This document shows, in pieces, positions 13,786 through 64,000 of a stretch of 64,000 bases of DNA. Under the pieces are notes generated by a model. The model did not search any database, was not told where the DNA came from, and worked only from the letters and a program-made list of their open reading frames with translations. How positions within the stretch are numbered: the stretch's first letter is position 1; each line of letters begins with the position of its first letter. Both the position numbers and the translations under genes were made by a program. Origin of the DNA: Pegea sp. RAD2-039 (lineage: Eukaryota; Chordata; Thaliacea; Salpida; Salpidae); NCBI GenBank assembly GCA_034620365.1, contig JAQGEQ010000071.1, forward strand, positions 3,968,001-4,032,000. The letters are read 5' to 3'.

Positions 13786-17589
<3,804 letters not shown>

Positions 17590-36777: not shown

Positions 36778-37254
36778 TTAGTCGTTATTTGCAGTTTCAC
36801 AACCCTTCCAACTTTGTTCCACAATTTTTGATATCTTCTTTTCATACTCTCTTCTGTTATTGGTATACAACTGAGCAGCGCAGTTGTTGGCAGGACTATT
36901 TGGGTTTGGTTCGTCTAGCAAAGATTGTATAGATGTTAAAATAGAAGAAACATCATAAGTGGGACTCCATCTATTCTGCAAGATATCAATACAGATGCTG
37001 CCATCAGCATAAACATTAGGATGAAACATATCAGAAGTAAATTTAACAGAAGGTGGCCTATTAGGATACTCTTCAGTAAATATTAATTTTAATTTAAATG
37101 TCCCATCTTCAAATGGTGTGTCTTGTGGACCTATGATCAATGCTTTCCAGATCATGATGTTATCATCAGAAGGAGCTCCGCTTACTCCTGAAGGAGGATC
37201 ATCTTGCATCTTTTTAAAATCTCTCATCAATCTTCTTCTAGCAGGTGTTGACAT
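36778..37254 (-). CDS. UBE2A/UBE2B: Ubiquitin-conjugating enzyme E2, RAD6 / UBE2A-UBE2B type, single exon
   Basis: 158 aa, close to the 152 aa of vertebrate RAD6 proteins. The E2 takes ubiquitin from E1 and, with RAD18 or RNF20/40-type E3 ligases, modifies PCNA (damage tolerance) and histone H2B. The start [20 protein letters not shown] is the RAD6 N-terminus. The HPN motif is [16 protein letters not shown] with the catalytic Cys at residue 88, followed by [20 protein letters not shown] and [10 protein letters not shown]. The C-terminus is six residues longer than in mammals (CETANND). No introns; no inactivating change, so it is either a working intronless gene or a functional retrocopy. Confidence 0.98.
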
Positions 37255-39836: not shown

Positions 39837-42800
39837 TTAACGGGCAGCTCTTTTTACATTCCGCAGTGGATCATCCATCTGCTTGCGACGTTTCAAATTA
39901 GCTGAAGACTTTTTCTTTTTACAATCATGGCTAGGTGCCTTTTGGTTTCTTTCAGTTCTAGCCACTGGTTGACCGGTGTACATCTCTCTGATAGTGGCTG
40001 GAACTTTGAGGAAAATATTTAGAGGATTAAAGATTTACTACAAATGTGAAACTCACTGAGGTAGGATGGGACATTTTTCATGTGACGTTGGATCTTACGA
40101 GGTCGAAGAGCCGTGTCATGTCTCAAGACATTCAAATCATTTGGATTTTCTTCAAAATATGACTTTAGCTTCTCTGATTTCAGAATTTCAATTCGGATTT
40201 CTTTTAAGCGAGCATCTCTAATCGATGACTTCGTCACTGATCTAATAGCATCCTGAAGATCAAGACATTAATCTCAAAATTCTGTTAAACATCTCAAGTT
40301 TTTACCTTGCATCTGTACCGAAGACCGTCTATCTCGTCCATTTTAAAGTGGTAGGGCTTGAGAGGTTCACTCGCCTCATTAGAGTCTTCTACGCAGGCTG
40401 AAAGTTGACTCTGTGCCTCTTCAAGAAGTTCTGCTTCCTCTGGAAGAACAAGGGAGAGAGCAGTCCCAGTTTTATCTCCACGAGCAGTTCTAAATGAAGC
40501 AAGTTTTGTGAAAAGAAGAAAAAAATAAGAAAATAGAACCTTCCAACTCTGTGGATGTAACTATCAACAGTTTGAGGGAAATCAAAGTTGATGACGTTCT
40601 TTACATTCTCAAAATCAATTCCTCTTGAAACTCCGTACTCTTTGGAAGCATTCATCTTCTTCTTTCTGTTTAGAAACATTTGATGTGTCCCAATCACTTG
40701 ATTCTAGGCAACTTACTTCTGCTTGGCAGCTTTTTTCTGGCTTTTTGTAGCCTTATCAACTTTTTTTTCTTGAGTGGAAAGCATGTAGCTCTCATCTGTA
40801 GCGATGATGTAATCGTACAAGCCCTACAAGTAGTATCACAATTAGAAACTTCATTTATGGATTTACACGATAAAAAGTACCTGATTAAACTGCTCGACCA
40901 CGTGACATCTAGAGTTTAGGGGCAACTCGGAGTTTAAGACTGTAGGAAAAATAGAAAATTGTTCCAAAAATAATTTCAATCTGAGAAAAATCTTCATCAA
41001 TTTCATTCAATAAAATGATCTTTGTGTACTGACCTGTAGCATTTATCTATGGAGTTAACAAACAGAATACTTTTTCCTCGAATTAGCTTCAGTTTCATCA
41101 GTGCATAAATCAAAAGATACTTGTCATTATCATCTTCACTCATCACGTGATACTGAGTCAGCTGATCGGTCAACGCGAGGCGCGATTCTTCTAGGTTCAA
41201 ACTGACAGGATTATGCAAAATCAAACTTTTTAAAGTATCAATATCCTGAAAAATAGAAGTTGTTTTCCATCAATCAACAGAAACTAGAAACTTACCTCAC
41301 TAAGTGTTGCTGACATTAAAAACGATTGGCAACAATTAGATAACTGAGGCAGAAGATTTGTCAAATCATCTTTATAACCAAATGAAAAGAGCAAATCTGC
41401 TTCATCAACAACTAGAAATTTCAGAGATTTATTTAATGTGATCGTATTTTCTCGGATGTGAGCAAGGACTCTACTAGGAGTTCCAACAATGATATCTGGT
41501 TTATACGCAAGAAGAGGTCTGCGACAAATAAATATTTTTCATAAAAAATTTCAACAAATTGATTTTGAAACAAATTAATGAAAATTAAAAAACTTAAAAA
41601 GTCGTAATGTTACCTCAACGCTTTAGCGTTATTATGACTTGAAATATCAACGCAGTTAATTTGTCTCGAACAGAAAGCTGTTATTTGTTGTATCATTCTG
41701 CATGCTTGAGAAGAAAGCTCACGAGACGGTACTAATACTAACCCAGAGATTTCTTGCTCTAAATTAATAGAAAAATATAAAAGTTTCTTGATAAAAACAA
41801 CAAATTTGTTGATGTAGTAACAAGTCCATTACTAAAAATTTCTAGATAATTAGTAGATAAAAGGTTTTATACAAAGACAGCTTCTCTATAACATCAACTA
41901 ACCAAACTCAACTACATTTTTCTTCAACTGAAGTAATTGTTGTACAATTGGAATAACAAATGCAGCAGTTTTTCCAGAACCTGTCCTAGCACGTGCTAAA
42001 ATATCTTTCCCATCCAGTGCTAGAGGAATTGCATTTTTTTGTATAGACGTTGGAGTAGACCATCCTTGTTTAGCTATTGCCTTTAAAAAAATCACTTTTT
42101 AAAAGATATGAAAACTTTAATTATTTTTTATTAAAAATACATTTAAGAGGTTAAAATATTTAACTTATATAATTCTTTCAATATTTAAAATCTAAGTAAA
42201 AATTAAAGGTTTAAACATAATTTGAAGCTTTTGAAGAAAATACAAATTTCGACTGTTGATAAATTTAATTAAACTTTTAATTTTTGATTATAAATTAATA
42301 AATTCTATATAATTAAACTACATCAATAAAATCTAAAATATTTTTAACTAAAAATGTTAAATAAAAAAGTGTTTTTGTGCTTAAAAAGATTTTTTAAATT
42401 ACTTCATAAATCATACAATATTATCAATATATTAATAAATTGAAAATGATTTTATTTTTATATTTTGAAACAAATACCTTTAACAGAAATTAAAAAATTA
42501 AGATTTAGATTTGTCACAGGTTTTATAATTAGTAAAGTACAACAAAAAATTAAATAGACAATTACTTGGATGAAAAACTAAAGTTATAAAAATATTTGAT
42601 TATATTTAAAAATTTTATGAAAAAAATGTAATTATCAGAGAAAATAATTTTGTCTATTTTTATAATATCCACACAAAAGTTAAAATTTTTATATAAAATG
42701 AAATTCAAAACTTTATAAAGCTAAAATAAAAAGTAAAACTCAAATATTTTACTCAACTTTAAGTTAACAAAATAAATTTTAATAAATTTTAAGAAAATTA

Positions 42801-43945: not shown

Positions 43946-45658
43946 GGCTATAATATAACAATAAAAATTTTGTATGGATTTTTTTCCTACCTTAAATAAT
44001 AGTCGTAAAAAATATATATGTTTGAAATATTATCAAAAAACTTTGGTTAGATTTTAAATTAGAAGGTTTTTAAACTATAAGAAGTAAAAACTAGCAGTTA
44101 TTAGCTATAGAAATTTGAATAGCTCATTTTATGTTTTCTTGAGGATGATATTTTTATTACTATTTTATATACCAAGACATATTTCTTGAAATTCTTGTCG
44201 TATCACCAGCTGTAGAACGTAAACATCGATGATGTTTTTTTGGTGATATTTTTAAATTTTGATATTTATTACTTATTTGAAAAATAATAATAGAAACTTA
44301 CAAGCTAGTTTTAACTTAGATATTATTTTTTTCGTTCTCTAAGAAATTTAAACTCTGCAATTTAGTTTAATTCTGACAAATATTGTGGGAAATATTTTTT
44401 TACCTTATTGTTAATAATAATAAAAAATCAAGTTTCATTTATGCAAATTTTAGTTGTGTGATAAATAAATATTTTTCTTTTCAACTTTTTATTTCTAACA
44501 TATACCTTTTAGTTTTCGGTTAATTTTTAGAAAGAAATTTTATCTACACAAATCTACTTTGAAAGAACTTTAGGGTATCCATTTAAATGACAAATGTGTC
44601 TCTTTCTGATTTAGTCACGAACGTACCAGCCAAGCGAAAAATAAACTTTGATTCCATCCTTATGTTCTTTCTTCTTTTGTACATAATTCCTTTCGTTGTA
44701 TCATCATTTAGACCAATAACAATTCATCTTTGTTGTCAAAGCGACCTTGAACTGCAAAGCTGATTCTCTTTATGTGCTCAGCTTCAGTCTTCTTGAGAAT
44801 TTAAATGTAATGCATTTTACCAATTTGTTTGTTAAAAGAGCAAGACTTGCTCTGAAGTCAGTAATCTTTCAGAAGATGAATAGTTGATTTGATCTTTGGA
44901 TTTGTTCACTATTCTAATTTGATAGAATGATAATAACTCTTTGGCAGAGCTTTATTTTATTTAAATATATTATTCAAATTTATAATTTGCAAACTAACAT
45001 TTACTTTTCATTTATTCGTAATCAATGCTTAAATCTAAATTTATTTTTTCTTGTATTATTTCCACTGGTAAATGAGACAACAAACTTTAATTGCTGCGAT
45101 TTATTTACACGCTATTTATAGAGTTTGAACATAAAAGTCAACGAAGAAATAAACAATTTATATCAGCGACTACCAAACACAGCATTTAGAGAGTTGGTAA
45201 GTTTGCTGGAATTTCCAGAAGCTTCAACGTTATCCTCAAACTTGCTTTCGACTGGTTCGCGACGTTTTAACAAATCTGTTAGAAATCAGATGAATATTAG
45301 TCATAGAAACCTTTTTGATTATTTGTAGAATGTGTAAAAAGCGTTATTGTATTAAGTTTACAATTTGTTACTATTTATCTGATGCAAATAATTTTGTATT
45401 TTTCTTAATAATAAAAATATTTTAGCTTTAAACTAATTACAAAATTAAAGATTACTTCTCTGTATTCTGTTGTTGATTATTTGAACGTCTCCCATCTAAA
45501 CAAGATTCAATTATTTTACAGTAAACACTAGTTTCAGTTTGAATTGATTTTTAAATTATTCACTGATAAAATATCTTTGAATAAATTTAAAAAGTTAATT
45601 TGAAAAAACCAAGTTAAAAAACGACCAAATTATTCCAATATCTTGTAAGACACAAAAC
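43946..45658. other. AT-rich intergenic stretch downstream of the polycystin gene
   Basis: No gene supported. A 67-codon frame at 45125-45328 (+) is not a clear exon. If the polycystin message splices past its apparent last stop (a strong GAA|GTAAGAG donor overlaps it), a further C-terminal exon could lie here, but I found none. Confidence 0.4.
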
Positions 45659-48600
45659 TCAGACTCTTACTTCGGCTTGGACTTCCTCTTTAAGTGATTC
45701 AACTCTCAAATATTTATTATAATTTTCTTCTAGTTCATAAACATACTTGTCCAAAGCTTTCTGAAGATTGACAATATTATGACAAGATGATGTCTCCAAC
45801 TCATCTGAAAGAAAAATTATATATTTTTTGAGTTCTTCGCTGATACAAAAGAAGAATCAAGATCCAATGAAGTCTTACAGGGAAGTTTTGGAAGAGGAAT
45901 CTCTTCTTGACACAAAGGAACCGTTTTGTTGCTGTACTTTAAAGCTGTAAAGTAATCAACTCGGAATTATAAAAAAGAACCAATAAGTGATGACCACCTT
46001 TGCCAGTTAAGTCGATACCAGACCATTTACTAAACCTCTTCAACATGAAGTCAACAATCTCATGTTCATTACTCTGTTTACTAATATCTTCTAATGTCAG
46101 AGTATAAGACTCATTAATGATAGAGATGAGGATGTTGAGAATGATGAAAGCGGCTGTAAAAGAGAAGATGAAGTAGAAGACTGGTCCAAACCAACGGTAA
46201 AGGCCCCGAAGATCCTTATAGAGAGGACGGCCTGAATGAAAAAAGCATTCAATCAGAATCTAGGGACCTTAGAAGTTAAACTGACCCATTGTTGTTGCCA
46301 TGATTGTCTCTGATGACGACAGAAGACTTTTGAAGTCTTCCATAAAAGGCGAAAAGATGACGTAACTGTAGATGGAATTAGTCACATGACTAAATCGAAG
46401 CTGATTGGATGATTGTACCCGATGTGAATAAACGCGATGTAGAAGACAAGGGCGAGAACGAAGAAGCCAGGCCACTGCTTCGCGCTGTTTTTCAGCACTG
46501 ACGTCAGCATCCCGATCTTGCGGTTGAAGCGGAGTAGTTTCATGAACCGGATGATCCCGAAGAAGGCGGAAGTTGCGAGAAGGGTCGCGACGATTGAATC
46601 CACCATCATCAGTTGCTGGAAGTTGACGTAACTACCTGTGATGGGTCAAAGGAGTCAAATTGAGGCGAACGGGGCGTGTGGGGTACGTTTATCGCGATGG
46701 AATTCGTCCATTGTAACTGAGAGTAGGCGTTGTTGGATGATGTACAAAATGGTCACAGACCAATCTGTCACCATGATTACAAAGTCGTAGTAATTCCACG
46801 CATCACTGAACACAGCGCGCCTAATTCGATAAATCCGTCGAAGCTGCTTGAAAGTAAAACTGATCAAGTGGATGACGTAGATAAGCTGTGGAGAGTGACG
46901 TCATTACAATGCGTGATGGAGCGGGGAGGTTGTGGCACCTGAGCAAGGAACATTAATGTCCCGTAACCACCGATGGTCTGGTATGGTCGATACGTCATAA
47001 TTGATGACATGGTAACAGCGGCACCTATTGGTGGAAATTCAGCGAGAATTTCGATTCCAGTGAAGAGATTGATGTTGGGATTGTAGAGAGTGAACTCGAC
47101 GAAAACCGCGCGCGTTTGCTCATCGATCCACGCGTCAGAGAAGAGTGAATTGATGATGAAAAGACCTGACTGAGTCACGTGTTAAATGAAATCGCGTTTT
47201 CGATGTTGCTTACGTCATAGTTCACCCCTAACTCAGCTGAGTATCCTCCACCAGGGTATAGGGCCAGGTTTCCAACATAGGGCACGCCCCGAAGCTGTTT
47301 CCAGGTTTGATACTTCCATGCAACCTCCAGTGGATCGTCATCATCGATATCAAGATCTTCTTTCATCTGATCTGTCAGAATCCGAGGATTTTTCCATTTA
47401 GGAGAGTGGCTTGAAGTTGACTCCTTAAAGATGCTGAAAGCCCCACGACATTCAGTCTGAACTGACCCAACATTTGGACAGGACTCTGTGGAAACAAAGT
47501 CTTCAAAGTGTGGGACAAGTGTGGGACAGGTAGTTGAAACAGATATGGACAAAAGTAGAAATGTGGGCCACAAATGTAGGAACCTGAATTGATACGAATC
47601 TGTCGTAATCTCGCTGGTCCAACTCGATATGATTGTTCATCGATGATGAAGCTTCTTTCGCGCCAATTCTTCTTCTTCCCATTGTACCATTGATGTGAAT
47701 AAATATTTGGAAGTAAAGTCAAATTGAGAAAACGCCAAAAATGTGCAACTGACGTCACCTACAAATTATCCAATCACAACTCATTTTGCTGCTTCTTTAT
47801 CAACCAACCGTATCGAGTCCATATGATGACGTCACAAAAGTTTTCTTAATGTTTGCGTTGATTCGTTGACCTCGAGAATCGCGCGTTCCATGACACAAAA
47901 AAAGCAACGTCATGATGTACAGAAAGTAGACAAAAACTTCCCAAATCACTGACGTCATCTCCTTTTCTTTTCGACGCAATCTTCGAGCTTTTCTCAACTT
48001 CCGTTTATTCGGCGGTTTTGGCGGTGATGACGTCATCGCATCGCGATTGTAAGCTTCTTTTTCTGCATAATGACTCAAACAGTGACGTCATCAATATATA
48101 ATCAAACAGCTACCAATGTCACCCGCGCACACGTCCAAGAACTTCTGGTCAGCTTCTCGCACTTCGCGACCATCGATTGAGTCCAGGGCACTTTCGTCTG
48201 CTTTCTTGATCACCGTGGCAACGAACATCGACATCGCGATGACCTGATCGTGATTACGTCATCAGATGCGCGTTGTTTAAAATAACCTGACCTTTAGTGG
48301 CTGGACCACAAAAACAGACTGTCCAAAAGATAACATCATACTGGTCAACCAGCTGTTGGCTTTGTCCCGACCCCATTCAAAACTGTACATGACCGTGAAG
48401 AAGCCAGAAGTGATGACCGCCAACCATGTCAGTGTCCACGCAACATAAACACACCAATGAGGCCACTGGGCCACACTTGCAGTCTGACCTCGGCCTCCAT
48501 AAATGTTAGGTTTTGCGTTGATGGTCCCATCTTCGTTTAGAGTATAGACAGCATCGCGTCCCATTAGCATAGACGGGTCAGGTAAGGTCTGGGCACATTT

Positions 48601-51600
48601 GTGTAAAGGGTCTACATAAATTGAACAGTTGGTCACAAGTGTGGGACTACTGGCACAAACTGACTTTCTTGGTTAAACTTTTGGACCATTTTTCTGATTT
48701 CTTTCTTCTCAGCGTCATCCAGAACCTGCTGCTGTTTCGTTTTCGCTTTCTTAAACAACGTCATAATGAGAGTGACCACAGGGACCACAGTTAGTGTGCT
48801 ACAAAAGCTGGTCCACAACTGAAGTGGTGAGATTCTGGAAAAATGTCACAGTTACTTGTCGGCCTGTGTAACAATTGTTGCTATGGTTACGAAAATGGTC
48901 CGACATGCAATGCAGAGGTGGCGGACAGTTGGTCACCAGACCGGAAATACATCGCGTTAGCGATCATTGTCATAAAAAGCAGCGATTCGCAGCAACACAG
49001 ACGCTGAGCGCGCGTGAAGTTGCTTTTTGTGGGTCTATAGAAGAGCTGTGGACAAGAAAGTGATAAGTGTAGGACAGGTGGACAATTGGTCTTACTGATA
49101 TCCACAAATGCTCCTCGGTCAGCTTTTGTGAGGCAGTAGACATAAAAAGTCGATTGAAAGTGGACATGTTGTCTGTGGACGCGGTGGGCACGATACAGTC
49201 CACTTTCTGGTCTATACCTTCATCCACTGCTAGCCACTTGTCACAGATAAAGTACCATCTAGGATAAAAAGGTGACCACGTGAAGCCATAGCGCCAAAAG
49301 GTCACCTTTTCCCACTTCGGATATCCTGGACAACCACCTGGTCCAAGTACCAGCTTCTTAGGTCCCCTTTTCCAGTGTTGTCATGCCAAATATGGATGTA
49401 GGACAGTTCGCCCAGGCTTCTACCTTCTCGTAGTAACAAGTGGACCACACTGCCCCGCACATACGGATGTCCTTGTTCATTGTGGGCCAATCTACGGACC
49501 CGACTCTGTCCCTCACTTCCATAGAAGATACAGAAGACTCGGGACTGAGTCGAGGCCCCTCTACCGTGACCAGTAAAAATGGTCACTTGATAGAGGTGGT
49601 TGTCGTCCTTATGATTGTCCATGGTCGATTTTAGCTGCCACTGCAAACAAAAAAAAACGTGGACAACGGACCACATATGCTCCTGGTTCAAACCTTTTTC
49701 TCATCTAAGCGGTCCTGTCTTCGGGCCAGGACCAGACCAACAATGAATATGCAAATCATCGCGATGATTGTCGCGAACACGGCAGGATTGTCCACGATAT
49801 CAACTTTGGCCCAGACTGTCGTGAAATCGATCGTGTTCGGAGGCACAAAGAACTCGGCGCTGAAAATCAGCGAAGCGGAAAAATCCGCGCGACAAAAGCA
49901 TTCGGTCACTTCCGGTGTCGAATGCTCAGCGACCTACATGTCATAGGTCATAAAGGACCGCGGACCTTCTAGTTTCTAACCCGACATCCGGAACCGCTCC
50001 ACTTTTGCGTTTTTGCATCATACTTCCGACATCCGGGAGTCGCAATGAGCAGATGATAAGAAGTCGAGTTCTCGATACCTACAGATCGACGACGACGCGC
50101 GCGCATCTTCTGATTGACACTAGGTGTCGTCGTGTTCACTGAGCAAGTACCGAATTCAAACGCGTTGATGACGTCACGAGGCCGACACTAACATTTGTCG
50201 CGAATGCCGAGATAGTAAACTCCAATCTTCGGGATCTCTGCCTCTGGGATGAATATCTTGAACTGATCCGCAGCAGCATCCACTTCCCAGATCTTCTTCG
50301 GAAGCTCAAAGCTCCAATCGAAGATCTCCGGAGTCGGTTTTGATCCGAAACGGATAAAGACATCAAAAGTCGCTCTGCATTATCCAAAGATCTCAAAGAT
50401 TAGTGGATGCAAATGGGACTCTAACCTGTGATCTTCTGGATCAACAAGGATCATGAGAGAGTTGAAATTGGAGATGATCTCGAATTTGCTGATTGACAAA
50501 CTCGAATCGTTGGTTGCCTTGACAACCGTCGTCATGTCTTTATATGGATCAAACGTCGATGGAACAGACACGCCCATTTCCGGCGACTCTTCCGCACTGA
50601 CGTCACTTCCGCCATCAATATTCAGCATGGTTACGGGTGACGCAATAAGCGCGGCGTCTTCACCGAACGCGAACGGATTGTCCTTGAAAGCAGTGACGCG
50701 TAACGCCACCGGTTGTGACGTATTAGTCGCGTTGTGGCCGAGCAAGCTGTCCATAGATGGAAGTTTTAATCGCGACCCACCGCCTGTTTCTAATTGTTTG
50801 TTGCTGACGTCATCAGGGGACATTTTTTCGACCTGATTATAAGTTGATGGAAGAATTTTTTGGAAAAAGTATTTTTGGCTCACTTTCATTTCCAGCTCGC
50901 TGCTACTGACGTCAAGTGGGGGTTCCCCGCTCATTTGTTTGGCTAGCAACGCGGTTGCTGTGCTGGAAATCGCGTCTACCGCGTTTCCAATCACGTGCTC
51001 CGCCTGACATGAAAATCTTGAAGATCAGAAGGAGTGATGAAAAGGTCCTACTTCCAAAGCGGATCGACGCACGCGTCGCTTCTCGCGTCTGCTCCTCATC
51101 TTCTTCGAGTATTCTAATTCTTCCGGAGATAGATCTCTCGCATCCAGCTCCTGATAATCGACTTCCGAACTCGCGATTTTCAGATCGCGCAGCGCCCCTA
51201 AGTCGGTCTCGGAAGCCTGTCCACAACTCAATCGGACCAGTCCACTGACCATCGACTTGTTACCTTGGCAACCTTACCAAGTGACCCGACGATATTACCC
51301 GCCGTCGTGGTCACGTCTTCTTTACTCGATTCGCCTGAGAAACTGGACAGCTCGGCTGACATGGTCCGGACTGCACTTGAAGCCTGGTCACGTGCTGACG
51401 CGTCCACTTCCGCTGGACGTGATGTCACCGCTTGCATCGCGCTTGTCATCTGCTGGAGGCTTTCGATTGACGTCATCGAAGTTGTCGCGGCTGAGAGCGC
51501 GCTGACTACTTCTGAGCGGAGCTACAATATCTTCCATCGCGTCTTATCGCGTTTGTGACGTCATCGACGCTTACTTTACTCTTCTTCTTTTTTCCGTTGT

Positions 51601-54600
51601 CGACGTGAGTCGTGTTTTCGCTACTCATAGTAGTGGTTGCCGTGGTAACGAAGGCGAGAGTGGTGGGGGTGGGTGTTGTCCAGATAGAATTGGTGAACGC
51701 GCGCGTTTCGTTGCCCAAAAAGTTCTCTTCTACGTCATAATCATCTTCAATGTTGAGGATAGAAGCTGTGGATGATGTGAAATGTTTGATTCGAACCAAA
51801 TGGACCAGTGGATACGAACAGATGGACTGGGCCAATTGTGCGGCCCCTTTACTGTTTCCAGTATTGGACAGAATGGCCATTTTACTTGCATTACCACTGG
51901 TCAGTTTGGAAAGAGTCTCAGCCAAGTGTGGAGAATCAGGAGGTACGATCTGAAGATGTTCTGTGAGTGAAGATCAATAATTGGATGTTGGGACCTTCAT
52001 TGAGATGATATTTGAAGATGCACACTCTCCATAAATATCACAAATCTGTGCCACAGCTGATACAGTGAAGTTGAGATTTTTGTCTCCCAAAGCCATAGTG
52101 ACTCCTTGAAAAAGTCTTATAGATCTTCATCTTATCAGAGCACAAATCTTGCCTGGAGTCTTTGGGACATTCCCGAAATAGAGAAGAAGACCCTTTGTGG
52201 AGTTGCCTTCGGGTAAAGTCGAGAATTTGTAAGTTAGAGGACTGAAAGAAGATCTTTCAGAGCTTTCTGGATACTTCAATCTATCTCCTTCATCTTTCCA
52301 ATCACGACATTCGAACATGACCTTTGTGACGTCATGAGAGCGTGGTCCAAGACTCTATTTCGATAACAAACCTCATCAACTACTGCTCCTCCAATATAGA
52401 AGACTCGTTGATAGTAATTTACATAATTTTCAAACTCCAAGGAGCTTCCAGGAGACTCTTTATTTTCATGAAAGAGCCAGCATTGAGAGTTGAGAAGATG
52501 ATAGGAGAGAGACACACACATAAACTCCCTTCAAATAAGATTTGAAATTTGATTCAGAATAATTCTCTCAGAATAGAAGTTTTAAATTTTTATCTATTAG
52601 CTTAGTGGATTGAAAATTTGCAAAATAAATGAATCACGAAAACTTGTTTATAAAAATTATTTGTTTTCTTGATTTATAGATTTAAATGTTTATATAAATC
52701 ATAAATTTCAGGAATAGATTCAATAGTCTCAATATGATTTTTCGAAAACTTGTTTCAAAAGCATCATGAGCAGATGGATAAATTGAATTATTTTGAAATA
52801 AATTGATGTAGTCTTCAATAAAAGAGTTAAATGGAATCAAGATGACTTAAAGAATGAGTTTTGATAACTACCAGTGTTAATAATATTATCAAAACTATTT
52901 CATTATTTTCAAGACAATAAAAAATATATTTGAAATTTATGAATGGTAATTTTGTGAAATTATATTTGTAGCTTTTCTATCTTACTAGATGAAATTATTT
53001 ATTCAATGAGTTATTATTAAGATAATCGAATTATGACGTAATAAGTAGTGAAGAAAATTATAAACATTTCTTAATTTGTTTCAAATTTGTTGTTTGGAAA
53101 TTTCATTTTAATAGATAATTATTTTTGGAGATAATATTTTTGATAAATGGAAGATTATTACACTCGTGTACACCAAGATGCTCCTAGAATATTGGACAGC
53201 CAATTACCAAAAGTGTGTCGAGTTTTCGAAACAATTCTTGACCAGAAAGAGTTTCAACTTAACCTTATTCCACTTGTAAAATCTCATATTCAAAATGGCT
53301 GTAATGAAATTATTCAAAAACGACAACAACAATTTGAACAAAAAGTAGAAATGATAAAGAAGCTAAAAGAACAGAAAGAAAAAGCAAAATCGCGTCAAGT
53401 AGTCGTTGATGGAGAAGACACATTTTATACACCAATGAATTCTTACACAGATAAAAAGAACGAAAAAACACAAAAAAAGAAATTTACCCCAAAAAGACCT
53501 AAAGTAACCCAAAAAGTAAGTTAATAAGAAGTGAGAAGTGAAAAAAAAAACATTCTTATCAAATGAAACTCAAAACTTTTTCTTTCCAGAAAAGACCTGC
53601 ACCAAAATACTTTGACTCAAGCGATGAAGAGTCGAGCGATGAAGAGCAAGATGAAATCCGGATGAAGACTTCATATGAAGATATCCTGAAGCTTCAATGT
53701 AATCCTCATATATCTACAATGATCGAAGTAATGAAACCGCCTTTAAGAGAGATCTCTGAATGCTGTAACTCAGTTAGGAGCTGGATGCAGTTGTTGGTTC
53801 CTCGGATGAGTGATGGGAACAACTTCGGGGTTGGGGTACAAAACGAAATGTTAGAATATGTCAAAAGACTTGAACTAGACAGCTGTTCTACACTTCAAGC
53901 TTTTTCTTTGTACCATTTGACTAGAGCTGAAGTTGTAGCAAGATTTTCTAGGTATCCAGGTGTACAGGATTATTGTAAAGCTTTGGAAGAGTTAGATGTT
54001 AAAGAGTTTATTCAGTTGAGACTAGTTGCTCGTCAAATGCGAAATTCTTGTTACGCTCTTCAAGATATGGTTAAAAAGAATATGGATAAGGTGATAAAAC
54101 CACGAACTGACACTTGCAATAATATGTTGGTTTGTTAGAAGAGTTTGTGTAAAAGTATGTTGACAATAAAATAAACTGATGAATATATCTGGATTTGTTA
54201 GTTAGATTCGAATTTTTATATTTCTAAAGCTGTTTTTTGGTAATTTATTTTAATTAAAAACTATCTTCACCTTGTTAAAGTGCAGTGTTCTTTACATTCA
54301 TCTAAATTAGTTCCATTTAAAATCTTTTTTGGTTTTATTTTCAAATTCTGATTTTCAAATTCATCAAAAGCTTTTGTGTAATCTAAAAGAGTTTGAAAAA
54401 AAAAATAAATTTTCTGAAGCTAACTATCTAACCATAAAATAAAGAAATGAACCTAAAGTTGTAGAAGTAAGACATACTCCTCCATAAGGAGGAAGATTAG
54501 CCTTAATATTAAAATCAGAATAACTGAATACTCTTCCATCAATACCATCTTGAGAAATGTTAATCCGAAGAAGGTAGAGGTTGCCACCAACTAAAAAGTC

Positions 54601-57600
54601 TTTATTCAGTACAACTATACTTGAAGTTACTCCAGTTGTAGTGTTTTGATCCCAAACAAGCTGAATGAGGAAGACACAAATGATAGATTTTTGTTTTTAT
54701 AGACTTCTTGAAACTTACTACTTCTTCTAAATCTTCATCACTAATCCCATCTTCATCTTGCACTGAACATCATAAAAAGTCATCAATTTGATCATCTGCA
54801 AAATCTTACTTACTTAACTTTTGATCTGAACTATGATTCGAAAGAGGAACAAATTTATATAAAGTCCACAAGTATTCAGGATGCCTATAAAGAGGACAAT
54901 TGGAGCAGACAGCGTGAAGCGCAAGCGCTTGACTCGGATTTGTCTTCTTCTTGCAATTCTCAGCACATCTATCAACAAAAAAAGTAGATCTAAAGACTCT
55001 TCGGGACCCTTACTCAATATAGAAATCCGGAGGGTCGCCTTCTTTTACGACAATCTTCTGCTGGAACTCTTGTTGATGTCTCCCTGGTTTAGTGACCACT
55101 ACTTTATAGTAGTAGTTGGTATAAAGTGTCATGGAGTTGGTGTTTAAATGAAAGATTCCTTCTCTATCAAACTTCACAGAAACTTCTTCGGACACACAAC
55201 CGCTCGACTGAAGCGGCAGAAATCTGTCAAGGCAATATGAGCACGTGACATCCGCGAAGCTGCTAACCGCGATTTACTTCTTTTCATCGAAACGTCGACA
55301 AAACCAATTAAAACTGAGACCTTTGGTCCGATTCGATACTAAGTCTGGGTCATAAGAGCTATGGAAAGCGTTCCAGGTGGCCACTCGACCAGCTCCAACC
55401 GTCCGCATGCTCCCTCCCCTAAAAAGGACCGGCAGTCAGCAACACGTCATGACGTCATAACACGTGACGTCACTTGATGTGCGCGACCAGTGGCGAAGAG
55501 ACCACGTCCATGTAAATGGCATCGCTGTGTTCCAATAACTGGTCCTCAGTTAATAGTTTCAGGTGGACCGATATTCGATAAAGACCAAGTCCAAAGGTCA
55601 GGGCTGGGATCAAAATCTCTGAGCCCTTGGATTGAAGGGCCAGACTAGCTGACGGTGTTGCTCGGTCAGCTAAAATTCCTCAAAATAGAATTTGAGTTGA
55701 GACAAAGGTCATAAACTCACCCTCAAACTTGAGTGCGGACCATTTAAATTGGACACCAGGGTAGTGAAGGCAAACGACGTTAGGTGTCGAAGTGATGACG
55801 ATTTTTTTCGATCGAAACAATTTTTTTGTGTTATCTATATTCTATCGAGAATTAAAATGTAACTTGCCGGGTTTTGAAGCTTAAAATACCGCCAACCTTT
55901 CCTTCATCCTCGATGTATATTGTCGGAAAGATACAACCGCGAGGGTTGATGGCTACCTTGACGTCCTTGTCCTCAACTGAGCCTTGGTCGCTGACACTCA
56001 CTTTAACCACAAAAACATCTTCCTGGACAAAATCGTGGCTGATTCGAATTTCGTTAGAGTCCTCGTCAGGCTTCGCGACCAGCGCCGAACAATTCGCGCC
56101 ACAAAGACGCGAACAATCGGTGTTATGGATCGAATGAAAAGCTTCTGTCCCATCCCCAAAGTCCCAGTGGACACAACCACTTTTGCCCACATACACAAAC
56201 TACACAAAAAACAATAAAATAAATGCTGTGACGTCATCAACACGCGAACCGTCAGCGTCAATTGGACAGTGTCATTGATGACGGCGACGTTGTTGTGGGT
56301 CAAGGAACGAATTTGAAATCCAGAGACTTCTTTCCAGAACTTCCGTTCAAAATGATCAAAGACCTTGATGAGAGAAATGATCTTAAGAAGACGGGATACT
56401 GTTGATGATGTAGAGACCTTGCTGATTGCTAAAGGAGGAGCTAAGATCCGATCTTCGCGAAAAAGAAGACATTCACGAGTGATGCGATGCAAGGATACTG
56501 ATCTACAGTTGAAAGATCTCTCAGAGCAGCACAAAGACACACAATCTTCTTCAGAAGAGTTTTTTACTGATCTTAAAGGAAGAGATTGTGAAAGATGAGT
56601 CCCTGCGAAGAAGTGGAAGTCCTCAGAGCAAGATGCTGTAAAAGATCATCTCAGATTTTGACTCGGATCATTTGCTGATCTTCACTTTTAGTTTTAAAAT
56701 CCACAAATGAGTCATCACTGTCCGTGTCTTCATTTACACCGCGAACCGTGATTCTGTATGACGTCACGGGCTCGAGACTTTCCACAGTGAAGTAATTGCG
56801 CTCTTTGACAATGATCTGATCCTGAAGAAGATCTGATCTTTAAAAGATCAAGATCATCACCATCACTTACAATCTGCTCTTTCTCCGTTATGTTCCCGTT
56901 CTTCTGCTTCCGGTAAACCTGCAGTAGAAGTGATGACGTCATCGATTTCTTGTCATTGTTGTCATAGCAACCTCGATAATGTGGTAATCAGCTCCTTCAG
57001 AGCGTGTCCACTCCACTTCAGCAGCAGTGTCCATGTGAAAGCCTTCTGCGATTGTCAGATTAGTCGGTTGAGGTAGCTCTGTGAAGAAGCGTTGTCATAG
57101 ATACAGTCGTCATAGCAACACTAACCACAAACGAACTTGTAAAACGATTCATCACGACTGGGAAGCTCTCTGTATCGCGATTTATCGCGTGCATCGTGAT
57201 CCTGTAGAATGAGGCAGCTTTGAGATTACTCATCAAGACCCAGTTGCTCTCGACAAGCACATTAGTCACTTCAAGATGTAGAAATATGCTGCCGAAGAAA
57301 AGCTGAACACGTGATGAGGGTTTGGTTGTCAAGGAAACCTGTAATCGTCGTTTTCTCGTCGTTCGATTCCAATCGAGAGATTGTACTCGGTTGCTAAGGG
57401 AACTACCTCCCACGTGATGTTCATCGATGTGTCTGTGACGTCATCACTCGATACGGAGAAGTTTTGAGGTGTTTCCAACTCTACAATTGAATATGTGTCA
57501 CTTAAGCGTGGTTATTTGTTGTCATGGCAACCACTGACTCGTGAAGCAGTGAACTGTGACAGGTGCGCTGTGAGTTCCATCAATTGTGTTGTTGGCGATT

Positions 57601-60600
57601 AGTATCAATTGATAAACATTTCCAGATTCCAGTTCATCCACTTCTAAAGTTGTACTGTAAACAAATCGTAGTTACCGGTCAGTGGTTGCCGGTCAGTGGT
57701 TGCAAGTTAGTGTTTGGTGGCAGGTGGTTGAAGCTCACTTCTTAGTGACCATCAATCGCTCATATGGTGATGTCTTGTTGCCTAGAAACAGCTGATACTC
57801 AGTTGCTCCTTCCACTGCATCCCATCGAACAGCGAGACTTGATGACGTCACAGATTCTCGAATAATCTCAAAATATTTGGGTCGTCGCAATCCTGAAAAC
57901 GTCACAAATCTCATGAAAGAGGATGTAGAGAAATGATCTCTCACTTGTGTACTCTTCAAGCTCAGTTTCCATGCCAACCGTACGCTTACTCGCCGCCTTC
58001 AACACGACTTGATAAAGGGTTCCATCGTCTAGATCTGGAAGAGTAAATAAAGTCCCACGGACTTCAAAAGAGGCTCTTCCTTCTTTGTTAGGAGGCCTGT
58101 AATGATCAACTAATCAGGTAAAGTCACAAGTGATGACGTCACGTCTGATGACGTCACTCACTGAAGATGTAAGAGATAGCGGACCGCAAATTCGACTGGT
58201 TTCCACTGTACCATGAACAAATTGGACCGGACCGATTGTGGAAGGACCACAAAGTCAGTGGCTGCTGACAACTCTGCGACAAGTCTCAATCTTGGACCGC
58301 AGTCCGCATCACAATCTTCGATTCTTACTTGTGACCTGCACGATGCTGCTGACGTCACTGATGACGTGGCAGTTGGTAGCAGTGACGTAGACAGTGAACT
58401 CAGTGTTGGGCGTCAAACCACCGATTTCAATCTGCAATAATCGTGTTGGTTGCTATGGTAACGAAGACGACTTGGAGGTCACTTCTGTCTTGGAGGTATT
58501 TCCGTTTCCACTAAGAAATGGGACCGACCATGACAGTTCCCCGTCCACTTGGACCATATAACTATCCGCTTTGTCCACTTGTAACCAACGCACAAAGAAC
58601 TTTTCGTTTGTGACGTCATAAGCTTCGAGCGCTTTCGGCTTCTCCAAATCTTAAAAGATTCTAATTAGTGTACCAGTGACAAATGGTCACAACTGACTTG
58701 TAAACTGGTCAAGAAGAACTGACAAACTGTCCGTGTTACGGTTGACTGCTTTCAATCGGACCGTGTACTTGATTGCAGGTTCCAGACCACCAAACACGAC
58801 GCCCGTGTAAGTGACGTTGACGCGATAGATCTTGTCGCTGTCCGTGAACAGCTGGTTGGTTTCGATACCAATACTGGTGTCAGCTGGTTGGTAAGTGATG
58901 GGAATAAAAGTGGTTTGAGGGAATTCCCCTCTTTTGTTTCTGTTTGGTCGATTTCTGTGAAAATTTCAAGTTAGAAGTCACGTGACGTGTCCAATAAAAA
59001 GTAGACTTTTGAACTGATCTTTTGGATAAAATATCTTCATCTTCTGATTGAAGAATGATCTTATCAACTAGTTCATCTTCCGATGGAAGAGTTCTTTCAA
59101 GCGAGTCTTTGTAATTTGCTTCGATCTCCACGCTTCATTACACAGATTCAACACAAAATCACCTCATTTGCATATTACTTGTAAACTTCGCTATTTCGAA
59201 CTTCACGCCATGACAACGAGAAGGATCGATCTGTGACATCTTCTAATCTTACTTGTTGAGGTCTTGGAAGCTCTTCAAAGATCACATAAAGATGAAGTTG
59301 ATTATCAAACTGTTTACTTACTTGAATGAACTTTCAATGTCTCCTGTTTGCTTTGTGTCTTACTACTCGCTGCAACCATCACAATCCTGTAACAGGTATC
59401 AGACATCAGATCTTCAAACATAAACTCCGGGTTTGGAGTTTGTTCATCGTATCTTTCAATCAGTAATTCATCTTCATTTTCATAATCCACTTCAGAATCA
59501 TCACAAGAAAGTAAAGCTAATCTGTGATTGAAATTTTTTGGGTTTTTTTAAAGATTTTCAAAAATTTCGGGATTTTTATTCCAGTTAAACTTTTAGTTTC
59601 ATTTGAAGTAAATTGTTTCTGTTTTCTTCTTGTCCTCACCAAAGTTGTTGGAAACTTTTTATATTTTTTAGATTATCTCTTTAGTTATTAATCAAAACTT
59701 CTAAAAAGCAAATAATAAAATTTTTTTTTTTCATCTCTATATTAGCAGTATCTACGTCTCTACTTAAACAAGCTCTCTGATTGGACGATACTGACTTGTA
59801 GTATTTGGATGCTGGCACTTTGGTCCAGTTTAAAGAAATTGTGCTTTCAGTAACATCAATCACTGAGAAGTTTGCAGGAGCAGGTAGCTCTGTAGAAGAA
59901 GTATTTACAAGTGAAGAGCATAAGACTTGATGTTGAACCTGTATAAACTCTTGTCTTTGATTCTAAACTTCTTGTAAATCTGTTAACTGAAACCACAGAA
60001 ATATCATAAAGTGTGTTTGGTTCCAAATCATCAAGTTCAATTTCTGTATCTGTTACATTGACTTGAGTCTCTTCTTTGTTAACTCCTGAAATTAGTCGCG
60101 TTGCTAAGCGCTCTACAGCCATCTAGTGGTTAACCTTCAGTGTACTTCACGATGTAGAAGTCTGTATCTTCTACAGGGCCCCACTGGACCAACATTGAGT
60201 TTGTTGAAACCGCTTCTGGGGCCACACTAAGCGCGCTGGGCGATTGTAATCGTGTAAAAGTGGTTAGATGAAGCGGGAAGCTTGTGGTGTCATTGTTACA
60301 AGCTGAGAAGCGAAAAGTGACGCGATAGTCGAGATTTCTTTGAAATTTTACCGGTTAGTTTGAAAGTGTAGTTGGTGGAAGGGTGAAGGGGCCATAAATG
60401 GATACTGACGGCAAAAAGTTCCTGAACTGCCGGCAAATCTGTAAATAAACCCGAATGAGTTTTGTACGATACATCGGCACTAAACTCACTTTCAGGTAGA
60501 CGAGCTTGTTGAGCGTTTTCGCGCGGATTAATTTCGACTTCAAGTCGATAAAAAGTCGCGCTTGTGACGTTTTCCCATTCCAAGTTTACGGAACTTTCCA

Positions 60601-63600
60601 ACAATGTGTCCGGGTTGATACGGAACCAATCAGGACTTCTCAACTCTGGACCACAGTCGGTTTAGGACCTACCCCAAATACCCCGAACTTACTGGTAAAC
60701 TGCCTGATCACACTGGGCTTGCTGGTCAGGTCATTATGGAACGATACAATCATAATCTCATATCCTTTGCTAGGCAACATGCGCGATAGTTCCACGCGCG
60801 TCTCACTAGTCCGGCCCTGTCCTAGCACATTGCTTGGTAACTGCTTCTCACCTGTAAGTGATGGTCATTGATGGTAGTCGATGATGACGTCACAAACCTT
60901 CGCGAAAGGCGTGTTCGACGTCTCGGTAAGTGTCGCTACATTGAAGCTTTTCATCTTTATCTGGCGGCTCAGGAACCGAACAAGTTCCAGTTTCTACTTC
61001 CGGTACTGATTGTTCGCTGACCACTAACCGGAAGTTAGAAACACGCGAAGAAGCGGACTTCGCGTCACCTGGACCAGATGTGGATTGCTGACCACTGCAA
61101 TCGAAGACCAGGATGAGATATTGAGATGCTCCAGACACTGGGGACCAGCTGATGGTCATGGACGTGTTGAAGACATCTTCATATTTTGCCTCGAAGTTAT
61201 CGGGACGCGAGAGTCCTAAAGATGAAGATGTTGAAGATCAGATCATCAGATCTTCCTCTTACTGGTTGTTTGACTCTGAGTGGTCGGAAGTCCAGTTGTG
61301 TTTAGATATCGGTGGTTCTCCGGGTACACTGTCACTGAATAGTTGGTCCCTGGTTCAAGTCCCTCAACTTTTGTCCATGTCTCAGTTACTTCATGGACAC
61401 TTTGGTTGCTGAGTGGTTCGGGATTAACCTCGACTTTGTACCAGTAAGCCATCCGGACAAATGTCCAGCAGAGGACCAAAGAAGTGTCCTGGACATATTC
61501 AGGAAGAATCTCTAACTTCGATATCTTTTCTAGTCCTTCAAGTATTAGTTTAGAGTCTGGCCCTCTGTCCACTGTCCACTTACTTGTGTACACATACTCC
61601 TTTGCAGGTAAACTGTCCGTGTCCTCATTTTTTGCTTGGATCAGAAGCGAGTGTTTGACAGCTGGGTCAAGATCTCGAAGTTTCAATTTTGTGTCTTCTA
61701 CTTCATTCTTCTGCAAAATCGAAGCTGTTACGTCATCAACACTACTACGTCATCAACACTACTACGTCATCAACACTACTACGTCATCAGCACTACTACG
61801 TCATCAACACTACTACGTCATCAGCACTACTACGTCATCATCACTATTACGTCATCAACACTACTACGTCATCATCACTATTACGTCATCAACACTATTA
61901 CGTCATCATCACTGCTACGTCATCAACACTACTACGTCATCATCACTACTACGTCATCAACACTATTACGTCATCAACACTATTACGTCATCATCACTAC
62001 TACGTCATCAACACTACTGACCCGAAAAACTTGCTGACCAGTATTGGCGTTTTCTAAAACCACTTTGTACTTGTTGACACCCTTGACTGCGGCCCATCTG
62101 ACGTCAGCAGATGATGACGTCACATTAGACACCACGATCCACGCAGGTGTGGGGAGTTCTATAAAATCATTATGACTTCATAGTTACCACGTCAGTATGA
62201 CATCACTGACTGGTCCAGAAGTCAAAGCTGACCACTTTACTGTAGGACATCTCGTCCAGGGCTGTCAGGTCCACTTGATAGTGCTGAGCAGCCTTCAAGT
62301 GTTTGAACATCACTGAAGCGTCAGTCGCGGTTCCTTGCGCCATCTGATGACGTCACTGATATATTAGCGATCAGTAAATCGAGATTGGTTGACCTTCAAT
62401 CCTTTAAACTCCCGAAGAGTCCAATTGAAGAAGATGTGTTCGTTGACAGGTTCAATCCATTCTAACTGACAATGAAAACTTGTTCGATTGATAATTTTGA
62501 TCTCGTTCGGGGCTTGCAGTCCTTTGTGGCCGGAAAATAAACTTTAATTTCCCGCCAAAAAACTACCAGCGACTCAATCGTACTTGTAACAAAAGAAACT
62601 TTTTCCGAAACATCACCGATGTCATTTCCGGTATCATCGATGCCGACGATTGTGACGTTGTAGCGGATGCCAGCATCCAAGTTCTCAATCTTTACCTCTT
62701 CATCGAGAATATTACGAAGACCTTTGGATCCATAAACAGGGGGCTTGATAAACAACTACCACCAGTTGTAGACCATTAGTAGTGGTCAGGACTGGTCCAG
62801 AGGCTCTTACTGTGTATGAAGCAGCAGTCGGGATCGGTTTCCAGACCAGTATCGCGCTTTTAGTGGTCACGTGACCTTCTGGAACTTCCACAACAGTCGT
62901 TTTCATTTCAGCTGAATAAGAATCAATTATTGAAGTTGCTATGGAGATGGAAGCGAGTTGCATCACCTGGGATCGTCTTCGCGTCCGCACAGCTCCAATC
63001 ACCAGGATCTATGGGATCAAAATGATCATTAAGGATCAAGAAGATCTTTTAAGACCTGTTTGAAATCGAAGATCAGCTTCTGGTCCGCACCGACTTCCGT
63101 TTCTAATCATCGCGCGAAACACGAATTCCATATTTGGATCTAAATCGCGAATTGTGAGCTGCGCGAAATCGATCCCGATCACAGGGATGTTGGGAAGCAA
63201 CCAAAGTTTAGATGCTTCTTCGTCATCAACGCTATCGACAACGACGCCATCAGAAGTCGCGCGCGCGCATCGCGTGTCACCGGAAGTAGAAAGTGTCAAT
63301 TGGAAGCTATTAGGATTAAAAAAGTCTTCTGCTCCTAGGAATCATTGGGACTTACCCATCTGGATCACCTGGGATCTTCCATTTGAGTCTCACAGAAGTT
63401 GGGAAGATTTTGACCACTTCGAGATCTTCAATTTGAGAAAGATCAGAATCTGAGAGAAGGAGATGATGAAGAGTGGGATTAGAGGAAGATCAGGACCTGT
63501 TTCGTTGCATACAGTTTCTGTGATTGATCTGTCTAATCGTGACAACAAATAATCTGCATCTTCTCCTAATTGAGACACAAAATCTTTGTAATGAAGATTG

Positions 63601-63734
63601 TATTCATCTTCATATTCATCTAGATGTAGATTATCTTCCGACAGAAAATCTTTTTCTGGGATCAGATCTTCTTCTGATCTTCCTTCATCTGGCAGCAACA
63701 GCAGTAACAGTAAAAGTATTTTCAGTTTTTTCAT
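45659..63734 (-). CDS. Polycystin-1-like receptor/channel protein with FN3 array, PAN, PKD, REJ, GPS, PLAT and TM core
   Basis: A very large membrane protein spread over 18 kb in dozens of short exons. It opens with a signal peptide (MKKLKI, eight Leu, PDEGRS). Domain order: about 15 fibronectin-III repeats; PAN/Apple; PKD (WDFGDGT...VFVVKVSVSD); REJ; GAIN/GPS; first TM; PLAT; polycystin core with extracellular TOP domain (LFTGIEILAEFPP); C-terminal coiled coil. Mapped N-terminal exons: 63497..63734, 63356..63449, 63056..63306, 62967..63008, 62811..62911, 62584..62755, 62394..62521, 62211..62343, 62031..62158, 61584..61710, 61263..61535, 60898..61215, 60693..60851; all in frame. Polycystin-1 proteins sit at cilia or on sperm and pair with TRPP2-type channels; the pore segment here (DFKSLLSSSETIMATTM) lacks a filter like PKD2, so it probably acts as the receptor-type partner. 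Treating 45.7-63.7 kb as one gene is inference: no stop, second start or poly(A) signal interrupts the chain, but full cDNA is lacking. The stop at 45659 overlaps a good donor. Confidence 0.88.
45660..49090 (-). other. Polycystin gene: membrane core and C-terminal coiled coil
   Basis: Exons after PLAT encode FTRAQRLCCCESLLFMTMIANAM (TM2, a hallmark of PC1 proteins), then further helices near 48780, 48420, 48350 and 47930. The TOP domain follows at 46900-47450 (PGGGYSAELGVNYD, WIDEQTRAVFVEFTLYNPN). The six-helix channel-like part comes next: YYDFVIMVTDWSV, IIRFMKLLRFNRKIGML, FFVLALVFYIAFIHIG, a degenerate pore, and YFIFSFTAAFIILNILISII. The cytoplasmic end (EHEIVDFMLKRFSKWSGID, then LQKALDKYVYELEENY) looks like a coiled coil. 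Confidence 0.85.
49300..49640 (-). other. Polycystin gene: PLAT/LH2 domain
   Basis: Reads YQVTIFTGHGRGASTQSRVF, then SYIHIWHDNTGKGDLRSWYL and, in the next exon, FYPRWYFICDKWLAVDEG. The order and spacing match the PLAT beta-sandwich of the first intracellular loop of polycystin-1 proteins, which binds lipids and arrestin-type partners. Confidence 0.9.
49690..51500 (-). other. Polycystin gene: GAIN/GPS region and first TM
   Basis: A Ser/Ala/Val-rich GAIN-type helical part (51.2-51.5 kb) and beta part (50.1-51.0 kb) lead to the GPS at 49900-50060. There I see YHLLIATPGCRKYD, a Trp, GCRV, then CFCRADFSASL and FFVPPNTIDF. The next span VFATIIAMICIFIVGLVLA is TM1. The His-Leu-Thr/Ser cleavage triplet expected two residues after the second Cys pair is replaced by Ala-Asp-Phe. 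Two polybasic stretches (RSRREKRRVRRS at about 51.07 kb; RARRRRS at about 50.1 kb) could be furin-type sites instead. Confidence 0.8.
53147..54138 (+). CDS. PSME3: Proteasome activator PA28-gamma (REG-gamma), nested gene
   Basis: Subunit of the heptameric 11S cap that opens the 20S proteasome for ubiquitin-independent degradation, nuclear in animals. Two exons, 53147..53515 and 53590..54138, flank a 74-nt GT..AG intron, giving 305 aa (human PSME3 254). The first exon holds the N-terminal helix region and a long basic linker (KKNEKTQKKKFTPKRPKVTQ) that probably works as nuclear localisation signal. An acidic run (SSDEESSDEEQDE) follows. The activation loop is MSDGNNFGVGVQ, nearly identical to the family loop, followed by the C-terminal helices (YHLTRAEVVARFSRYPGV, DVKEFIQLRLVARQMRN). 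AATAAA sits at 54165-54170. The whole gene lies inside a 1742-nt intron (52529-54270) of the polycystin gene, on the opposite strand. Confidence 0.96.
54165..54170 (+). terminator. Poly(A) signal AATAAA of PSME3
   Basis: AATAAA 27 nt after the PSME3 stop codon, before the left edge of the next polycystin exon at 54271. Confidence 0.7.
55855..56330 (-). other. Polycystin gene: PKD (polycystic kidney disease) domain
   Basis: An upstream exon (FQIRSLTHNNVAVINDTVQL) is joined to one that reads VYVGKSGCVHWDFGDGTEAF, then ISHDFVQEDVFVVKVSVSD. The WDFGDG and final Y/F-x-V-x-V-x-V-D strands are the PKD Ig-like fold. Only one PKD repeat is seen, against 16 in human polycystin-1. A Cys-rich loop (DCSRLCGANCSAL) is inserted between the two halves. 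Confidence 0.85.
56440..56645 (-). other. Polycystin gene: first PAN/Apple-like domain
   Basis: An exon between the FN3 array and the PKD domain encodes ASCSEDFHFFAG, then EEDCVSLCCSERSFNCRSVS and ECLLFRED. The C..C(C).....F.CRS.......C.L pattern is that of PAN/Apple modules, which bind proteins or sugars. The second PAN in this gene (REJ region) shows the same pattern. Confidence 0.7.
56690..63450 (-). other. Polycystin gene: array of about 15 fibronectin type III repeats
   Basis: Repeats in order (approximate, minus strand): 63056-63449, 62584-62911, 62211-62521, 61584-62158, 61263-61535, 60693-61215, 60306-60645, 59940-60290, 59330-59890, 58700-59280, 58330-58650, 57960-58310, 57545-57895, 57120-57480, 56695-57075. 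Each has an opening Pro (ELPxP, LExP), a B-strand W (e.g. LSVNL.W-, ISWSPV) and the L.P...Y.. turn before the F strand (DLEPNTLYDISVV, GLEPGTNYSVTVY, DLDPNMEFVF). Most are split by a phase-0 intron in the middle and separated by phase-1 introns, the classic layout for exon shuffling. I see no LRR, WSC or C-type lectin domain of the human type. Confidence 0.85.
61729..62017. repeat. Minisatellite, 17 copies of a 17-bp unit, inside a polycystin intron
   Basis: Consensus TACGTCATCAACACTAC on the plus strand, 17 units head to tail without interruption. Variants are at unit position 11 (A, G or T) and at the last three bases (TAC, TAT, TGC). It fills almost all of the 320-nt intron between polycystin exons 62031..62158 and 61584..61710. 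Because 17 is not a multiple of 3 and the unit has no stop, all three plus-strand frames stay open across it; I treat those frames as non-coding. Confidence 0.97.
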
Positions 63735-64000
63735 TTTATTCTGAAAATTTCATAAATTTTGAATCTTTAGTTTTTGAGGGATTTGAGGTTTTTGTCGATT
63801 TTGTTGATAAAGTTTTTATAAAAATATTTTATTTTTCGAAATTATTTTTATGAAGTTTAAATTAATATTCAGTTTACTTTAACTGCTAAGATTTCTAAAA
63901 TAAATAAATATCAGAAAAACAAATATTTTCTTTAAATAAACTCAACACTTTTTAATGAAATGCAAAAAGCTGTGAGGAAACTGAAATTCGATTTAAAATT
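63735..64000. promoter_or_regulatory. 5' flank of the polycystin gene
   Basis: AT-rich sequence directly upstream of the polycystin start codon on the minus strand. It must contain the 5' UTR and at least part of the promoter. No TATA box, X-box or TGACGTCA word is visible in the 266 bases available. Confidence 0.35.

Follow-up and report, generated by a model that had tools for sequence, protein, structure and literature searches.

The window analysed here is a stretch of 64,000 nucleotides (nt) from the salp Pegea sp. RAD2-039 (assembly GCA_034620365.1, contig JAQGEQ010000071.1, positions 3,968,001–4,032,000). It carries on its minus strand a gene of 72 exons (nt 45163..63734), here called FN3-polycystin, identified from a splice model with one open frame together with Pfam matches. 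Read from 63734 down to 45163, the joined exons give a single frame of 4126 amino acids (aa), the sole stop being the terminal one. The encoded protein shows, in this order, a signal-peptide-like start, 15 FN3 modules, a PAN domain, a PKD domain, a REJ domain with an inserted PAN, GPS, PLAT, the polycystin domain and the channel. The domain order advanced in the original prediction, which had been drawn from the letters of the window, was borne out by Pfam on the joined protein, with PKD and GPS just below their cut-offs. Polycystins, the family that underlies polycystic kidney disease, include some sperm-egg recognition receptors; the closest relatives of vertebrates are the tunicates.

The gene model was built with a small exon-intron program whose length prior favoured 42–60 nt, and its junctions were checked and fixed by hand. 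Two automatic models were discarded, one with free intron composition that broke into 172 tiny exons and a strict version that retained 24 exons and left out most of the remainder. The 71 introns are of the GT-AG type, with one exception of the GC-AG type (70 and 1, respectively); their median length is 51 nt, 62 of them measure 40–65 nt, and intron 1 has 47 nt. Many introns of about 50 nt were also seen in another polycystin gene that this genome contains (C46, see below). The gene had previously been placed at 45659..63734, and its start at 63734 stands; the coding strand is to be corrected to minus, and the C-terminal end lies in our model about 500 bases farther, at ~45163, so adding a C-terminal tail encoded by exons 70–72 (nt 45163..45804, minus strand).

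Intron 43 (nt 52529..54270, minus strand) is 1742 nt long and hosts a nested gene, absent from the original prediction, that runs antisense on the plus strand (nt 53147..54138). It encodes a PA28-type proteasome activator (PSME3-like) of ~305 aa in two exons joined by hand, with a PA28_C match of 155.1 bits (E 1.4e-45). An opposite-strand gene sitting between the two halves of the locus, in an intron of 1742 nt against a median of 51 nt, could be taken to mean that our model fused two genes, one for a receptor made of FN3, PAN, PKD and REJ and one for a polycystin core, with the PA28 gene between them. We regard this as very improbable. Intron 43 splits the coding sequence of the second PAN domain (PAN2), exon 43 ending at 54271 in phase 2 and exon 44 starting at 52528; the exon phases agree across the intron, and the profiles of PAN2 and REJ, split across or around it, run in register (PAN_1 3–74; REJ 8–320, then 335–450). 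Since the two halves of PAN2 fit in phase, the nested gene would not separate two genes, and both halves of the locus most probably belong to one. Frame, splice phase and domain continuity thus support a single predicted gene and transcript from the FN3 arm through the channel. An operon reading of the locus was also considered and rated low.

Ectodomain modules

Exon 1 (nt 63497..63734, minus strand, like all parts of the gene given below) supplies the start codon, a hydrophobic signal-peptide-like stretch and an acidic linker. The signal peptide was called by eye, its hydropathy lying below the 19-residue threshold. Immediately upstream of the start codon, an attttcag that ends at 63741 resembles a 3' splice acceptor; it would suit the addition of a spliced leader, a possible arrangement.

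The 15 FN3 modules (aa 80–1628) are encoded at nt 56687..63497. When each module was scanned singly, all 15 matched fn3, in agreement with the ~15 repeats first counted, and 11 of the 15 reached or exceeded the curated cut-off of 25 bits. The other four, modules 1, 2, 3 and 6, scored 24.4, 17.2, 19.5 and 22.8 bits (E 3e-5 to 6e-3), and 13 FN3 stretches passed in a Pfam scan of the whole array. An H_lectin match of 23.4 bits (cut-off 24) falls inside module 14. A phase-1 intron stands at the start of 14 of the 15 modules, and the same was found for the first PAN domain (PAN1); phase-1 introns at module starts are the usual mark of exon shuffling. Identity between modules is low (median 20%, maximum 31%, over 105 pairs), therefore the array does not resemble one that expanded recently.

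The array is followed by PAN1, a PAN/Apple domain (aa 1629–1701; nt 56418..56686) with 31.0 bits for PAN_1 (cut-off 21.4), and by a single, weak PKD domain (aa 1734–1843; nt 55942..56321; 20.8 bits, cut-off 23.5). The REJ domain comes in two parts. The first (aa 1870–2216; nt 54454..55808) covers REJ profile positions 8–320 with 187.7 bits; the second (aa 2307–2418; nt 51893..52321) covers positions 335–450 with 47.8 bits. Between them lies PAN2, a PAN/Apple domain encoded by exons 43 and 44 (aa 2217–2306; nt 52372..54453; PAN_1 35.1 bits, cut-off 21.4). Since the REJ profile stops at 320 before PAN2 and resumes at 335 right after it, a whole PAN domain is placed inside REJ, which despite this interruption scores 231.7 bits overall (cut-off 25). 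The earlier description of a REJ with a second PAN was therefore right as to the presence of both, and can be refined in that PAN2 is inserted within REJ.

No match to LRR, WSC or C-type lectin was found in FN3-polycystin in a Pfam scan up to E 0.1, and the weak PKD domain is the only one of its kind. The canonical ectodomain of polycystin-1 (LRR, WSC, C-type lectin and PKD array) is thus not that of FN3-polycystin.

GPS, membrane part and channel filter

A degenerate GPS (aa 2937–2983; nt 49847..50034; 21.6 bits, cut-off 22.5) reads C-F-C-R-A-D-F-S and is without the HL/T cleavage residues, a feature that had been missed in the original prediction. As PC1 is cleaved at the HL/T of its GPS (PMC4810088; this and the other papers are cited from excerpts), autoproteolysis at the GPS of FN3-polycystin appears unlikely. 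The first transmembrane helix (aa 3006–3024; nt 49724..49780) was located by hydropathy and is followed by the PLAT/LH2 domain (aa 3051–3145; nt 49308..49592; 47.0 bits, with a match to human polycystin-1), the position that the PKD1 family requires. From aa 3005 on, a simple hydropathy scan gave 10 distinct transmembrane peaks (11 rows, two overlapping) against the 11 expected in the PKD1 family; the helix expected near aa 3800 remained below the threshold, and the ectodomain itself contributed two extra peaks (aa 145 and aa 1917).

The polycystin (TOP) domain with its preceding helix (aa 3494–3739; nt 47020..47949) matched Polycystin_dom with 139.8 bits, and the channel core (aa 3758–3974; nt 46104..46965) matched PKD_channel with 125.7 bits. 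The region from PLAT to the transmembrane part gave 106.4 bits with human polycystin-1, and the channel a 186.9-bit alignment with polycystin-2. FN3-polycystin is thus a PKD1-family member with a different ectodomain, having REJ, PLAT and TOP/channel, and a GPS without HL/T.

In the ungapped alignment with polycystin-2, the filter L-G-D is replaced by M-G-R, so that the acidic residue of the filter of PKD2 or a homomeric TRPP channel is absent. PKD1L3, whose ectodomain is unlike that of FN3-polycystin, offers a parallel for this filter. PKD1L3 and PKD2L1 form a 1:3 heteromer, in which Lys2069 of PKD1L3 and three Asp of PKD2L1 stand at the filter entrance and Met2065 and Gly2066 of PKD1L3 line an inner site (PMC8357825). 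The M-G-R of FN3-polycystin can be likened to this Met-Gly with a basic residue nearby (PMC8357825), which supports the idea of a heteromeric subunit.

Relatives and possible roles

The whole assembly (105.7 Mb, 387 contigs) was searched for related genes, the counts of profile matches being lower bounds. REJ gave five matches at two loci, FN3-polycystin and a gene on C46 (~157–178 kb), so that at least two loci carry both REJ and PLAT. PLAT gave at least 25 matches, one in FN3-polycystin, one in the C46 gene, 17 on C42 and six elsewhere (C1:5929k, C3, C26 and C32 among them); a further PKD1-like gene devoid of REJ is possible among these other PLAT loci. The C46 gene has a C-type lectin (59.1 bits), nine PKD stretches, REJ (233.8 bits), a GPS of 29.2 bits with HLT, and PLAT (74.2 bits). 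Its LRR ends lie below their cut-offs (LRRNT 14.5, cut-off 25.8; LRRCT 13.8, cut-off 20), its two LRR pieces had no Pfam match, and its channel part, glimpsed by eye, had no match to the PKD_channel profile. Over PLAT to the transmembrane part it scored 153.6 bits with human polycystin-1 as the sequence total, against 106.4 bits for that stretch of FN3-polycystin. From its ectodomain, PLAT and human PKD1 match, the C46 gene is predicted to be a polycystin-1 of canonical build, and with such a copy in the same genome FN3-polycystin is to be seen as a divergent paralog. The searches returned no nearer copy of FN3-polycystin: with the membrane part, 11 of 20 matches fell in the gene itself and the other nine were weak (E 2e-5 or worse), and with the PAN-REJ part nine of 10 fell in the gene and one, weak, at C46. 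FN3-polycystin shares with polycystin-1, including the C46 copy, the REJ, GPS, PLAT and channel parts, in the same order from REJ on, and 30% identity over PLAT to the transmembrane part. It differs from the C46 gene in having 15 FN3 and two PAN in place of the C-type lectin, nine PKD and weak LRR ends, and in a GPS without HLT, which C46 has.

Three further loci we take to be of PKD2 type, by eye from their open frames and characteristic features. An Asp is present in the filter at C1:122k, and the pore of the third locus was not recovered. The gene at C1:5293k (C1:5287000-5296999) has a His in this place, with a filter LGH instead of LGD.

By lineage, the most relevant kin is s-Themis, which the original prediction had left out. 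Ciona s-Themis-B is a polycystin-1-like sperm receptor involved in ascidian self-sterility (PMC7018956, PMC9265791); s-Themis proteins are polycystin-1-like with REJ-GPS-LH2, the B type has a PKD channel, and each first intron contains an antisense gene (PMC7018956). As far as these descriptions go, s-Themis-B/B2 and FN3-polycystin have in common the tunicate origin, REJ, LH2/PLAT, the PKD channel and an intronic antisense gene; as to the GPS, that of FN3-polycystin scores 21.6 bits, short of the 22.5 needed. A hypervariable N-terminal region and testis expression also characterise s-Themis. The antisense gene of s-Themis is the fibrinogen-like v-Themis in the first intron, whereas that of FN3-polycystin is PA28 in intron 43, and the excerpts of PMC7018956 mention neither FN3 nor PAN when they list the domains of s-Themis. 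The sea-urchin SpREJ proteins and the vertebrate Pkd1l1 and Pkd1l2 have ectodomains with C-type lectin, EGF, SUEL, WSC, PKD or galactose-binding lectin (PMC1934368, PMC5318412); they resemble FN3-polycystin in REJ or GPS with PLAT and the channel part and differ from it in that no FN3 array or PAN is named for them in these excerpts. FNIII-like domains have been attributed to the human REJ itself (PMC3677617); the 15 FN3 modules of FN3-polycystin lie outside REJ. Limited paper searches, with animal proteomes outside their scope, retrieved no polycystin with PAN or with an FN3 array outside REJ. The claim that no polycystin of this order had been described thus held for the literature searched, in the excerpts seen, and we consider the domain order likely, rather than proven, to be new.

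On balance, we favour the reading that FN3-polycystin is a tunicate polycystin subunit of the PKD1 type, with an ectodomain built anew and an uncleaved arm, that probably acts together with a partner of PKD2 type. The FN3 array and the PAN modules would bind a ligand on another cell, on the egg coat or in the matrix; the arm would stay covalently joined to the membrane part because the GPS is without cleavage residues, and such a long uncleaved arm would fit a tether or a ligand antenna. The channel core might assemble with a PKD2-type partner, probably in a 1:3 ratio, and the filter Arg would be placed near where PKD1L3 contributes its Lys; binding to, or pull on, the arm would then change Ca2+ entry. 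Sperm or ciliated sensory cells may be the site of expression, neither being favoured; adhesion, mechanosensing, and sperm-egg or ciliary use, as first proposed, are likewise conceivable. Several points weigh against this reading. The Arg directly follows Met-Gly, whereas the Lys of PKD1L3 comes three residues after the Gly, and an Arg in the filter could also signify a non-conducting receptor. The choice of a PKD2-type partner is our supposition, the PKD (20.8 against 23.5 bits) and GPS (21.6 against 22.5 bits) matches fall just under the curated cut-offs, and exons 71–72, the least certain part of the gene model, were drawn from frame and splice sites alone.

More specific roles were also weighed. 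FN3-polycystin might serve in gamete recognition as s-Themis and REJ receptors do: placed on the sperm surface, it would read the egg coat with its FN3/PAN arm and trigger Ca2+ entry. The genome is that of a tunicate, and in Ciona s-Themis-B is a sperm receptor with REJ, GPS, LH2 and PKD channel (PMC7018956, PMC9265791); an antisense gene occupies an intron, as in s-Themis-B, and of the REJ+PLAT loci, at least two in number, the other one has the canonical PKD1 build. We are nevertheless doubtful of this role, since the nested gene codes for PA28 rather than a fibrinogen-like v-Themis and sits in intron 43, intron 1 having just 47 nt. Our doubt is equal for a mechanosensor of ciliated sensory cells, in which the FN3 array would be an elastic tether pulling on a PKD1/PKD2 channel. 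In Platynereis, collar receptors rely on a PKD1/PKD2 pair for hydrodynamic sensing (PMC6294549), polycystin-1 is expressed in the hair cells of Nematostella (PMC8846589), two FNIII-like domains of human REJ unfold under force at ~200 and 60 pN (PMC3677617), and with a GPS that lacks its cleavage residues the tether would remain covalent; still, the sequence has no pointer to a cell type, and FN3 arrays also serve as plain spacers and ligand binders. More speculative is a tunicate-specific recognition channel, with a fast-evolving uncleaved FN3-PAN antenna and an Arg-guarded 1:3 Ca2+ channel formed with a PKD2 partner, that would act in recognising gametes or in telling self from non-self, alongside s-Themis or instead of it.

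Under our favoured reading of a PKD1-type subunit, FN3 and PAN modules can make up a new ectodomain on a polycystin core, and REJ tolerates a whole inserted domain. A PKD1-type protein can be without the residues for GPS cleavage in a genome that retains another copy with HLT, and the contrast of the two copies offers a natural way to ask what GPS cleavage does in polycystin-1. Since tunicates already use polycystin-1-like sperm receptors for self-sterility, this differently built second polycystin is a candidate that can be put to the test in gamete recognition or in ciliary sensing.

Repeats, tunicate marks and neighbouring genes

Most of intron 9 is taken up by a 17-bp minisatellite of 17 copies (TACGTCATCAACACTAC; nt 61729..62018) found with Tandem Repeats Finder. 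The gene (nt 45163–63734) contains 29 copies of the palindrome TGACGTCA, against a mean of ~0.65 in 30 dinucleotide shuffles, and six more copies, likewise above expectation, lie at 1–45000 of the window; it was counted 33 times in the C46 PKD1 region (158–178 kb), 67 times in 20 kb of a PKD2-type locus (C1:5277–5297 kb) and 0, 4 and 0 times at three other loci. This CRE-like palindrome was ruled out as a sign of germline regulation, since its copies are spread over exons as well as introns and recur elsewhere in the genome. The X-box-like motif GTTRCC..RGYAAC had five matches, counted on both strands, in 45163–63734, with 0 in 30 shuffles and 0 in 1–45000.

Marks of a tunicate genome were also recorded. 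Connexins, which to our knowledge are confined to tunicates and vertebrates, gave 54 matches at E 0.001 or better, and the telomere arrays of the assembly are TTAGGG, so that a nematode telomere was dismissed. Innexins gave no match, a negative that carries no weight, and COX1, sought for the mitochondrial code, gave none either. The 16-base spliced leader of Ciona followed by GT was found at 99 exact places, with 0 for the control; the leader sequence and the Sm motif of the spliced leader (SL) RNA were taken from PMC7986045. A tandem array of the leader with ~199-bp spacing lies on C4 (C4:1135000-1136000), and the Sm motif AGCTTTGG of the Ciona SL RNA was not seen in the 500 bases of this array that were read.

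Elsewhere in the window, an open frame of 476 aa on the plus strand (nt 19033-20460) had no Pfam match at E 0.001. The neighbouring genes, all on the minus strand, comprise the Arp2/3 p34 subunit in one open frame (nt 10702-11604), pieces of an MCM helicase (nt 15322-16075), a ubiquitin-conjugating enzyme (nt 36781-37269) and the C-terminal piece of a helicase (nt 40392-40703).

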